Shown piece by piece: positions 34,824-38,042 of a stretch of 39,787 bases of DNA. Location of the stretch: positions 1-39,787 of IMG/VR virus record IMGVR_UViG_3300048930_000290; one strand, written 5' to 3'. Origin of the DNA: a virus. Within the stretch, counting starts at the first letter, position 1. Every line of letters begins with the position of its first letter. The notes beneath the pieces were generated by a model, which was not told the origin of the DNA, ran no database searches, and worked only from the letters and a program-made list of their open reading frames with translations. A program made the translations under genes and the position numbers.

Positions 34824-37800
34824 TTAGAGTTCCCCTTGATTCTTAGACTTATAAACTAGAACGCATCTGCAATTTGACACCACAACTCCATCACTGATAA
34901 GTAGGCCTGAATTTGATTGGAGATCATAAACATGGCCAGAATATCTAAAGACCTCAACCGATTCGACCTCATCAAAAAATACCAGTCCGGCGCTTCCATC
35001 AACCAACTCGCAAAGCTTTGCGGTTGTGATAGGGGAGTTATCTCTAGGTATTTGTTGAAGAAGGGCATCAAGCTTAGAAGTCAATCCGAACAAGAGTTTA
35101 TTAAGTGGCGCACTATCAAGAGTGACCCCATTTTGATTGAACGGCAATTGAAAAAAGCTTGGGTTGCCCGGCGTGGAAGCAGGGTCAGTCTCGACACCAA
35201 AATCAAAACCGCCAAGACTATTCAGAGAAGAAAGCTGCGAGTCTTTCTTTTCGAGACTGAGATTGCTAAGGCTCTTAAAAAGTTTAAGCCCGTCCAACAA
35301 TTCGCTATTGGCCACCACAACGTTGATATCGGACTGCCCACTCACCGCATCGCCGTGGAAGTTATCAGCTATCAGTTTTCTAGTAAAAGATTGCCCGTCC
35401 TTTTTAAGAAGTTCGAAGATCTCTTGGATGCGGGTTGGTTTGTTTTGTTCATTTACATCCCTGACATCTCTAAAGGCCTTGACCTCGCTTGCATAACTGA
35501 CAAGGTGAAGACCTTGAGTGATGTCCTTAGCAGGGATAAAACCCTTTTTGGACAATACGGGGTGATTTTTGGTAACGGTAAAAACTCGCCCCGATTTGGT
35601 CTTAACCTTCACCATATTCCCAACATATTTAAAACTAGACCCCGCTATAAAATACCCGGTGACTAAAGAATCAGGATGAAAACAGTTTATAACCTGATCA
35701 GCGCCCGCGCTTGAATCAAGCGGGCCATCCATCAGGGCATCAGGTGGCACCCCAAACTTTTCATCGAGTGGAACTTCTGCACCGTTCATAGCACCGTGAT
35801 CTGCACCACCATGAGCGCCGTCTCTTACGCGTGAATCATTAGCCGTGACCCACTCCTTCCACACACCGGGTATCTGAAGAGACTTGATAGCTTCCATTGA
35901 CCCATATTGTGAAGCAACCGCCACCTCAGTTCTCGCAATGCGCGTGGCTCTTGCAGGTGTTAGCTCTTCAAATTCTGATTGGATAAACTTTGAAAGCTCT
36001 GGTATAGAGTCACCATCTTCAATCGCGGTTTGTGTCCACTCACCTATGATCTTTTTGATGGTCTTTTGATTTGTCGAGGTGATGGTCTTGATCTGTTCGC
36101 CTGATCTTGTCTCGGTCCAATATTTTATAAAAGTGTCAAACTTTACGTTAGCTTTTTTCTCTATGTTGTAACCAAGACTCTTACCTTCTTCTAAGACCAT
36201 GTTGCCAAAGTCTTCAAGTGCATAGCGCGTATGGCGCATGAGAGTTTTCTTTAAGTCTTCATGCCACTCTGATTCAGTTTGAAGAAGGGCGTACTCGATG
36301 AGCTTTTTATCTTTGCCCTCTAGGGCTTTAGCCGTTTTTGAAAGTCGCTGAGAGAGGTCAAGGAAGTCTTGTTTAAGATCTCGCTCAAAGGAACCTTGAA
36401 GCCTTTTGCGTCTTTGGTTTTGTCTCTTCCAACTCTTTCGCTTTTCGTTTGCGTTGAGAAGGTTAATTGACTTCCATCCTTTTTCATCTTCTTCGAGTTC
36501 ATCATCTTCTGACTCGTCGTCTTCTGATTCATCATTTTGTTCTCTAGGTTCAGGTCCTGCATTGTTTGGTGCCTCATTAGTTGGTGGTGCCGTAGGTGTA
36601 AAAGATCTTCCTACTTCACCCATGATTTGTTCAGCTTGTTCCGATGTTAAATTAAAAGCCGTGATCAAAATGTTGACGCCCGTATCACGTGGCAATCTTC
36701 CACTTCCCACGGCTTCTATCACTGCAACCATTGAAGTGATCTGAATACCTGTGAGCGATTCTGTAGAGTCTGCGCCTTCTTCAGTTGATGGTTTAGCCGA
36801 TGATGCAAGTTCATAGTCATACATCATCTGACCACCGATGTTGTAAAAGTTAAGACCTTGCTGCTCTTCAAAACCCGCAGCTTCTCGCTTCTCATTGAGG
36901 GTCAAAAACTCAGTCGATTGAAGTGTGGAATATTTTTGCTCACGCTTCCACGTAAGGGCTTCGATATCGTCCTTGTCATAGTCAAGCCAAAGCCCTTCAC
37001 CAAACGCAGGGGTGAGCCACATATTCAATTGATCCCGCAAAGAATCCATCATTGGCAAAATTGTCTCTTCATAAAACGCAAGACGGGCTTCACGGTAGTT
37101 GTTAAAAGTCTTTTGGCCAAAGCCCATAAGTTCAGGTGGCACCCCTAAAGCGAGTGCTAGATCTGTGGCCGTGGTGGTTTTGTTATTTATAAAGTCCATA
37201 TCTTTCGGACCTAAAGAGATGGCTTGCCATGACAAACCACCTTCAATGATCATGGGGTTGCCAGCGTTTTTTGCACCCTTGTAGTTCGTCTCAAACTCTT
37301 TTCTCAAGCGTTCGTATTGTTCATTTGTTAGCTCACCCCTAGGGTTCGCATCTGACACTTTCATTTGAAGTACACCACTTGGTGTGGCCGAGTTCTGAAG
37401 AAGGGCTAGGTTCCATCTTTGACCCGCATTATTTTGATCAAGTGAAAGCATTGACGCCTCAAGTGGGCTCAACCCATACCAATCAGATAGTGGGTTGAAC
37501 GTCTTCCAATGCATGATTTGTGAAGTGAGAGTTATAGGATCAACATCCCATCTCTTTTCTTGTCCTGCATTTGAAAACACGTATTGCTTAGGATAGCCGT
37601 TTGCACCGGGTATGACTTTCATCTTGTCAGGTCTTACAGGCCACAACTCTAGAGGTGGTCCTGAAAGATTTAAACCTTTGTTGGCCTCAATGTATGAATT
37701 GCCCGCGATGCGGTTAAAGGCCACCACTGACTCAATGAACGCCGCTGTACCTTGTAAGGGGTTGGGCTTATCCCACAATGTGAGAAGTGGATGCTCTTCA

Positions 37801-38042
37801 ATCTCTTGCTTTCTTCCCCGACCTTTTTTCGAATAGAGAACCCAATTGATGCCAGAGCATGAGGTGGCAATCTTTGAGATTGCTGTATATACAACCACGT
37901 TTTTTGAAAACCCGAAGCGAGAGAAAGATTCATAGTTCGCATCGGTTGAGACGGGTCTACCTAAAAGATTTTTTGACATCACTATTCGAGCTTGAGATTC
38001 TTTAAGAGAAAAAGCGTACCTAAGTCGGTCGAGAAAGTTCAT
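34824..38042 (-). CDS. Portal-MuF fusion protein carrying an in-frame intein
   Basis: 1072 codons. Residues about 1-430 are an HK97-type portal (MSKNLLGRPVSTDANYESFS ... LGVPPELMGFGQKTFNNYRE). A Glu/Asp-rich linker (about 500-530) leads to a MuF head-morphogenesis domain (about 640-786). It has ARATRIARTEVAVASQYG, the WKEWVTANDSRVRDGAHGG motif and AMNGAEVPLDEKFGVPPDA. The MuF domain is interrupted after Ile-Asn by a 271-residue intein (787-1057); the remainder is Cys1058-Arg-Cys through the stop. Splicing would give an 801-aa protein with the full Asn-Cys-Arg-Cys. The portal forms the DNA entry ring; MuF proteins assist head assembly. Confidence 0.88.
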   Translation of the reverse strand: MNFLDRLRYAFSLKESQARIVMSKNLLGRPVSTDANYESFSRFGFSKNVVVYTAISKIATSCSGINWVLYSKKGRGRKQEIEEHPLLTLWDKPNPLQGTAAFIESVVAFNRIAGNSYIEANKGLNLSGPPLELWPVRPDKMKVIPGANGYPKQYVFSNAGQEKRWDVDPITLTSQIMHWKTFNPLSDWYGLSPLEASMLSLDQNNAGQRWNLALLQNSATPSGVLQMKVSDANPRGELTNEQYERLRKEFETNYKGAKNAGNPMIIEGGLSWQAISLGPKDMDFINNKTTTATDLALALGVPPELMGFGQKTFNNYREARLAFYEETILPMMDSLRDQLNMWLTPAFGEGLWLDYDKDDIEALTWKREQKYSTLQSTEFLTLNEKREAAGFEEQQGLNFYNIGGQMMYDYELASSAKPSTEEGADSTESLTGIQITSMVAVIEAVGSGRLPRDTGVNILITAFNLTSEQAEQIMGEVGRSFTPTAPPTNEAPNNAGPEPREQNDESEDDESEDDELEEDEKGWKSINLLNANEKRKSWKRQNQRRKRLQGSFERDLKQDFLDLSQRLSKTAKALEGKDKKLIEYALLQTESEWHEDLKKTLMRHTRYALEDFGNMVLEEGKSLGYNIEKKANVKFDTFIKYWTETRSGEQIKTITSTNQKTIKKIIGEWTQTAIEDGDSIPELSKFIQSEFEELTPARATRIARTEVAVASQYGSMEAIKSLQIPGVWKEWVTANDSRVRDGAHGGADHGAMNGAEVPLDEKFGVPPDALMDGPLDSSAGADQVINCFHPDSLVTGYFIAGSSFKYVGNMVKVKTKSGRVFTVTKNHPVLSKKGFIPAKDITQGLHLVSYASEVKAFRDVRDVNEQNKPTRIQEIFELLKKDGQSFTRKLIADNFHGDAVSGQSDINVVVANSELLDGLKLFKSLSNLSLEKKDSQLSSLNSLGGFDFGVETDPASTPGNPSFFQLPFNQNGVTLDSAPLNKLLFGLTSKLDALLQQIPRDNSPITTAKLCELVDGSAGLVFFDEVESVEVFRYSGHVYDLQSNSGLLISDGVVVSNCRCVLVYKSKNQGEL
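34874..34901 (+). promoter_or_regulatory. Antisense promoter inside the intein for the nuclease gene
   Basis: On the plus strand TTGACA (34874-34879, perfect consensus) lies over the intein's last codons. GATAAG (34896-34901, 4 of 6) follows after 16 bases. Transcription would start about 8-12 bases later, just before the Shine-Dalgarno GGAG at 34919. Both elements are inside the intein boundaries, so they move with the element. Confidence 0.5.
34919..34922 (+). promoter_or_regulatory. Shine-Dalgarno GGAG deciding the antisense nuclease start
   Basis: GGAG is followed nine bases later by ATG 34932. A TTG (34917) five codons upstream overlaps the GGAG itself and would have no ribosome site. 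The GGAG is the antisense of intein codons Leu255-Gln256, and ATG is the antisense of His251 (CAT) in block F. Confidence 0.7.
34932..35666 (+). CDS. Antisense-encoded homing endonuclease-like protein (HTH + Vsr/EDxHD-like nuclease)
   Basis: 244 aa. Residues 20-45 form a helix-turn-helix (ASINQLAKLCGCDRGVISRY), followed by RSQSEQEF. From about 100 a PD-(D/E)XK-type core follows: LRVFLFETEIAKAL (E108), HHNVDIGLP (D132), HRIAVEVIS (E143) and LLDAGWFVLFIYIPD. This layout matches Vsr-like EDxHD homing endonucleases known from inteins and introns. It lies wholly inside the intein on the other strand, with codons complementary in register (plus first base opposite minus third). It would cut intein-free portal genes to spread the intein. 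The His that usually follows the E-V motif is not evident, so activity is uncertain. Confidence 0.8.
   Translation: MARISKDLNRFDLIKKYQSGASINQLAKLCGCDRGVISRYLLKKGIKLRSQSEQEFIKWRTIKSDPILIERQLKKAWVARRGSRVSLDTKIKTAKTIQRRKLRVFLFETEIAKALKKFKPVQQFAIGHHNVDIGLPTHRIAVEVISYQFSSKRLPVLFKKFEDLLDAGWFVLFIYIPDISKGLDLACITDKVKTLSDVLSRDKTLFGQYGVIFGNGKNSPRFGLNLHHIPNIFKTRPRYKIPGD

Follow-up and report, generated by a model that had tools for sequence, protein, structure and literature searches.

An intein with a second gene on its other strand

Canonical inteins that contain a homing endonuclease carry it as an in-frame domain, on the same strand and at one conserved site (PMC6801210, PMC3943268). The window analyzed here, the 39,787-nucleotide virus record IMGVR_UViG_3300048930_000290 of IMG/VR, raises the question of whether an intein and its endonuclease can instead be written on opposite strands of the same bases. 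The original prediction, made from the letters alone, described a 244-codon gene antisense to an 813-bp intein in complementary register, and the coordinates of both frames bore this out (Table 1). The register is exact, with antisense codon position 1 facing sense position 3 and antisense position 3 facing sense position 1. Very probably, the locus is a mobile intein with its homing endonuclease encoded separately, by an opposite-strand gene in this register rather than by an in-frame domain.

The open reading frame that hosts the intein is a portal-MuF fusion (Pfam Phage_portal, 6.7e-73; Phage_Mu_F, 9.5e-8). Portal and MuF form a single fused gene in the window and are separate genes in most of the relatives fetched. 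The intein runs from CFHPDSLV to VVVSN, with Cys+1 as the next residue. The antisense gene is 244 aa long when read from the ATG at 34932 and would be 249 aa long if translation began at the alternative TTG at 34917.

Table 1. Positions of the features discussed (window coordinates unless a locus number is given)
Feature	Position	Strand	Basis or remark
Portal-MuF fusion gene (host gene, exteins and intein)	34824..38042	-	Pfam; intein-less relatives
Intein, 271 aa, 813 bp	34872..35684	-	Before the conserved Cys of the MuF CRC motif
Putative antisense homing-endonuclease gene, 244 aa	34932..35666	+	Open frame in intein-embedded relatives; purifying selection
Splicing block A (CFHPDSLVTGYFI)	35646..35684	-	Sequence and alignment
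Splicing block B (GRVFTVTKNHPVLSKKGFIPA)	35529..35591	-	Dual-coded with the nuclease C-terminus (GQYGVIFGNG)
Sense residues 128-219, linker, predicted disordered	35028..35303	-	pLDDT mostly 28-39
Splicing blocks F and G (GHVYDLQ...VVVSN)	34872..34946	-	Alignment
Shine-Dalgarno-like GGAG	34919..34922	+	9 nt before ATG 34932; antisense to the block F Leu-Gln codons
Helix-turn-helix domain of the antisense protein	34965..35084	+	Pfam HTH_58, 1.1e-4; helices in the model
Nuclease core of the antisense protein	35238..35531	+	Invariant E108, Q123, N130, D132, A141, E143
Free-standing nuclease	L129 455-1348 (IME285); L130 2324-3217 (BUCT629)		
dCMP deaminase loci with intein and antisense nuclease	L136 2108-3514 (Rctr197k, KX853510); L137 2809-4152		

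The antisense protein resembles a DNA-binding nuclease

A helix-turn-helix (HTH) followed by a Vsr/EDxHD-like core had been proposed for the antisense protein; the HTH and the likeness to Vsr-type nuclease profiles held, and the EDxHD motif was seen only in part. Among 31 antisense relatives, the HTH_7 model of resolvase matched 19, and the nuclease models MTES_1575, DUF559, and Vsr matched 23 (best 2.9e-9), 13, and 3, respectively. The antisense profile also matched 3hrl_A, an endonuclease-like protein (E = 3.9e-5), with E, Q, D, and E residues aligned. When the window protein was searched alone against Pfam, PHROGs, and PDB, only HTH matches were returned, the nuclease being seen with the family profile. 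Within the nuclease core, the six residues listed in Table 1 are invariant among the relatives, and the canonical ExK lysine is not conserved. As for the EDxHD set, E108 and D132 are invariant and E143 lies in the third strand, with the following His present only in some relatives; the profile search of the PDB gave no match to an I-Bth0305I entry.

The predicted structure of the antisense protein (pLDDT 85.8) resembles predicted phage endonucleases of the DUF559/Vsr type. A Foldseek comparison of the full model with the PDB gave no significant match across the whole chain, so the nuclease fold rests on profile matches and predicted phage structures. Lack of such a fold had been named in advance as an observation that would count against the reading, and both profiles and structure prediction pointed to one. 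The closest description of the protein is therefore a putative resolvase-type HTH joined to a DUF559/MTES_1575 nuclease of the PD-(D/E)XK / Vsr-like kind. In many relatives (collected loci L005, L017, L019, L022, and others), the antisense protein has two tandem HTH repeats, which lengthen the intein by ~50 codons and may alter the target-site reach.

The intein and the nuclease travel together

A tblastn search with the window antisense protein matched 39 phage records at 22-32% identity, opposite a MuF/minor-head gene at every locus fetched. Queries with two other members matched 105 and 121 records, including those of Salmonella Jerseyvirus, Klebsiella, Shigella, Edwardsiella, Pantoea, and Acinetobacter phages. 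Relatives were present in well over 100 named phages, Pseudomonas, Vibrio, and Gordonia phages among them, and further loci came from IMG/VR and one bacterial genome. In a profile scan of 66 collected loci and the window, the antisense protein was found in all, with both frames open in the same register; these loci encode 51 distinct antisense proteins, and both frames remain open even among proteins as little as ~22% identical. Homologous inteins with a broken antisense frame, which the original prediction had named as a possible refutation, did not occur among the 66 intein-borne loci collected.

Searches with the N-half of the sense intein and with the antisense protein recovered almost identical sets of phages, respectively 63 vs 62 phages of Salmonella, 8 vs 8 of Klebsiella, 14 vs 15 of Pseudomonas, and 15-21 vs 10-11 of Gordonia, two sets of queries that overlap on the DNA and thus do not form independent samples. 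Across 369 bacterial genomes of one class searched for free-standing full-length relatives, the sole full-length match was the already known Atlantibacter locus, and the other matches were partial, covering the HTH or the nuclease core only. The antisense-nuclease intein is widespread and old, not a one-off.

Its distribution in phages is sporadic. The Pseudomonas phages phi297 and JBD44 have a MuF gene without the insert, with flanks 94-98% identical to those of the intein-bearing BR313c; the junction falls between AAC and TGC, with zero bases gained or lost. The relatives of the window MuF at L070-L076 (57-76% identity) are likewise uninterrupted. When the Pseudomonas insertion flanks of L068/L069 were compared with L004, no clear co-conversion tract was seen, and the upstream mismatches were evenly spread.

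Two further arrangements were found. In the Acinetobacter phages IME285, BUCT629, and P1068, a free-standing nuclease gene converges on the end of a MuF gene that is intact and lacks an intein, and the complementary frame of this nuclease gene has at least 10 stops; the phages that carry most of the related Acinetobacter MuF genes yielded no nuclease match. In a tree with midpoint rooting only, the free-standing copy is nested in a supported intein-borne set (97/99), and this position makes escape from an intein its most likely origin. In Virus Rctr197k and one IMG/VR contig, a gene for dCMP deaminase (PF00383, 5.1e-11) is interrupted by the intein and its antisense nuclease, the insert standing before the Cys of a PCxxC motif; this constitutes a second host gene and site. 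It is probable that these elements form a distinct, old, and widespread mobile class in which splicing motifs double as the start, ribosome-binding site, and C-terminus of the nuclease, a class that spread to many phage hosts and to dCMP deaminase and spawned a free-standing nuclease.

An HTH combined with a nuclease could also fit other roles, and there are HEG-like nucleases that work in phage-phage competition. The antisense protein might then be a real DNA-binding nuclease with a non-homing role, such as late-gene regulation or the cutting of host or rival phage DNA. We consider this unlikely, because the nuclease travels with the intein, is absent from phages that are nearly identical apart from a clean empty site, and stands free directly beside the same target gene; this pattern of association, empty sites, and neighbors is the usual one for a homing nuclease. 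The distribution and the empty sites suggest that the antisense nuclease is likely the homing endonuclease of the intein, and the comparative data strongly upheld the earlier claim that a gene of the homing-endonuclease type shares the bases of the intein on the opposite strand. Under homing, the nuclease would be translated from an antisense transcript and would cut alleles that lack the intein, at its point of insertion ahead of the conserved Cys, after which recombination and repair would copy the whole 813-bp element. Splicing would remove the insert, so that the capsid-assembly protein would stay functional. In the sequence, the antisense start codon and its ribosome-binding site are located within block F, and the C-terminus of the nuclease faces blocks A and B.

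Splicing domain of the sense protein

By its sequence, the sense protein is an intein with a complete splicing domain in portal-MuF. Pfam Intein_splicing matched the window intein with E = 1.5e-7 (31.8 bits, under the cut-off of 35.8) and matched 30/30 sense sequences of the relatives, and the NCBIfam model TIGR01445 intein_Nterm scored 26.3 bits, passing its cut-off of 24.5. The sense profile matched solved inteins, for example, 2jmz and 2cw7. C1, T38xxH41, and N271 followed by Cys+1 are conserved, with one exception: in Rhodococcus phage REQ3 (L016), position 1 of the intein is apparently Ala, not Cys. The antisense gene of that phage (3884-4507) lacks the HTH part, and REQ3 is possibly a decaying or differently splicing member. 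In the AlphaFold2 model of the intein, the splicing halves are confident and the middle is of low confidence; the disordered residues 128-219 face the HTH, linker, and first nuclease helix of the antisense protein. DFHGD, a conserved sense motif in the intein middle, was considered as an intein motif and rejected, being the reverse reading of the nuclease motif VAVEV.

The weak constraint and predicted disorder of the sense middle would suit a different view, namely that the nuclease alone matters and that the sense frame is an unspliced, stop-free read-through insert of the ShiLan kind. That view is very improbable given the Intein_splicing match in every sense sequence, the intein_Nterm score above its cut-off, the conserved C1, TxxH, terminal N, and Cys+1, an omega_sense of 0.14-0.25 in the N-splicing half, and the exact insertion before a conserved Cys of a capsid gene.

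Annotations of the element vary among records. In many well-studied phage genomes it is annotated merely as a head protein, and the record of Escherichia phage Snoke has the intein annotated and the antisense gene not. In Salmonella phages such as OQ507916 and MZ560703 (H219, H251), the intein-containing MuF is labeled NAD+--asparagine ADP-ribosyltransferase, probably a misannotation.

Codon avoidance and selection on both strands

For the antisense frame to be open, the sense codons TTA, CTA, and TCA must be avoided, and within the antisense span they account for 0 of 29 Leu and 25 Ser codons. The count by eye in the original prediction had been about 28 Leu and 25 Ser; the Ser count and the avoidance itself stood, and the Leu count was corrected to 29. 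Codons of this type do occur just outside the span, as had been claimed, at five positions (35666, 34916, 34910, 34904, and 34877). Phage-wide avoidance, another refutation proposed beforehand, was contradicted by the 14 other window genes, in which TTA, CTA, and TCA make up 31% of the Leu codons and 35% of the Ser codons and the longest stretch without them is 102 codons, vs 242 in the antisense span. The probability of such avoidance by chance is ~4e-10 with window usage and 10^-10.7 in redraws with the gene's own usage. The three codons are absent in 29/29 representative relatives, and for low-GC relatives the probability of a chance open antisense frame is ~1e-4 to 1e-11 each.

Selection was examined in 13 pairs by classing single-base differences according to their effect on each frame; only codons with a single difference were used, the rates are approximate, and the exteins of the same genes in the same pairs served as the control. 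In the N-exteins, the rates per possible change (x100) for the SS, SN, NS, and NN classes (sense effect first) were 8.6, 8.9, 0.7, and 0.9, indicating constraint on the sense frame alone. The corresponding rates were 10.7, 3.2, 2.6, and 0.4 in the N-splicing half of the intein, indicating that both frames are constrained there, and 9.6, 1.6, 5.4, and 0.6 in the intein middle. Expressed as ratios, omega_antisense was 1.0-1.3 in the N-exteins; in the N-splicing half, omega_sense was 0.14-0.25 and omega_antisense 0.17-0.30; and in the middle, omega_antisense was 0.11-0.17 and omega_sense 0.38-0.57. The contrast between intein and extein was large and was seen in nearly every pair. By these comparisons of aligned sequences, both intein frames are under purifying selection, and the exteins are without antisense constraint. 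The expectation that the antisense frame would prove open and selectively maintained in homologous MuF inteins was thereby confirmed by a pairwise substitution test.

Strong double constraint is found mainly in two places, where the C-terminus of the nuclease opposes blocks A and B and where the antisense start opposes block F. The DNA of the intein middle is mainly nuclease gene, read by the sense ribosome as a disordered loop. It had been argued that neither the splicing element nor the endonuclease could be lost without harming the other; this holds at the ends of the intein and more weakly in its middle, but as an absolute claim it is too strong, because Acinetobacter phages have a free-standing nuclease beside an intein-less MuF.

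Although the complementary register makes antisense similarity partly track sense similarity, and an open antisense frame is unsurprising in GC-rich phages (log10 P near 0 for several), the idea that this frame is an accident, a side effect of the codons used by the sense gene and of reading a conserved intein in reverse, has next to no probability and is refuted by the codon positions at which substitutions occur. Inside the intein, most differences are at sense position 1 (antisense position 3), and in the exteins they are at sense position 3. In addition, antisense identity is as high as sense identity or higher in the compared pairs (e.g., 62% vs 47% between the window and L002), the probabilities for low-GC members are as small as given above, the nuclease residues are invariant among relatives, and the free-standing Acinetobacter gene encodes the same protein with stops in its complementary frame. 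A chance open frame or codon bias was rejected on the codon avoidance statistics and substitution rates, and shadow conservation from the sense frame on the position-specific substitutions and the uncoupled Acinetobacter copy.

Start signals inside splicing block F

Read on the other strand, the His codon in block F (GHVYDLQ) gives the antisense ATG. This codon is CAT, and hence an antisense ATG, in 36/40 relatives with 18.8 expected, and the block F Leu codon is CTC in 34/41 with 7.7 expected from each gene's usage. The match to a Shine-Dalgarno sequence averaged 4.31 bases in the relatives vs a maximum of 3.84 in 500 synonymous redraws; the start-codon and Shine-Dalgarno counts are inflated by the relatedness of the sequences. 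Because the Shine-Dalgarno bases are located upstream of the point where antisense coding begins, they constitute separate evidence for translation. A few relatives (e.g., L010, L019, and L062) must use another start, and the surroundings of the antisense gene showed no sigma-70-like promoter. Judging from these counts, a start codon and a Shine-Dalgarno-like site are kept through codon choice in block F.

Relation to known systems and implications

As in canonical inteins, in which a LAGLIDADG or HNH endonuclease sits in the Hint fold (PI-SceI, PI-PkoII), a splicing domain and an endonuclease are here parts of a single mobile insert, which occupies a conserved motif in a gene of importance to its carrier. 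In contrast to them, the nuclease is a separate antisense gene of another family that overlaps the splicing blocks; in place of an in-frame endonuclease domain in the Hint fold, the nuclease lies on the opposite strand and the middle of the sense protein is predicted to be disordered.

The ShiLan domain is an out-of-frame HNH insertion in actinobacteriophage methylases, on the same strand and with no splicing domain found (PMC11855218). It resembles the present element in having a homing-type nuclease in another frame while the interrupted gene stays open across the insert, and differs in that the nuclease here is on the opposite strand, is DUF559/Vsr-like, and belongs to what appears to be a genuine intein. 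Group I introns in Porphyra rDNA carry a His-Cys box HEG on the complementary strand, in an extension of ribozyme P1 (PMC2585584). They share with our locus an endonuclease gene opposite a splicing element; in those introns, however, one strand is protein-coding, whereas here both strands code over the same bases, including catalytic parts. Dassa et al. in 2009 reportedly described fractured genes with split inteins in which a nuclease gene lies between the split intein halves. The EDxHD/Vsr-like family (I-Bth0305I) offers a likeness in that a Vsr-like homing nuclease is tied to phage inteins or introns. Unlike in the fractured genes, the intein here is continuous and the nuclease antisense, and the assignment is Vsr-like without the full EDxHD set. 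Searches of the open-access literature turned up no account of an intein with an antisense endonuclease; the preprint bioRxiv 2025.01.02.630785, on actinobacteriophage inteins of 'non-canonical architecture', may overlap with the present findings.

In bacteria and phages, long antisense gene pairs with measurable selection on both proteins are rare and debated. The pair described here is conserved over very deep divergence, and the internal control provided by the exteins, together with the uncoupled Acinetobacter version, makes the double-coding constraint directly measurable. The arrangement breaks the usual rule that the endonuclease of an intein is an in-frame domain at one site of the Hint fold. 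Placement of the nuclease opposite the catalytic splicing blocks may make loss of the endonuclease slower or costlier, and this hindered loss offers a possible reason for the overlap.
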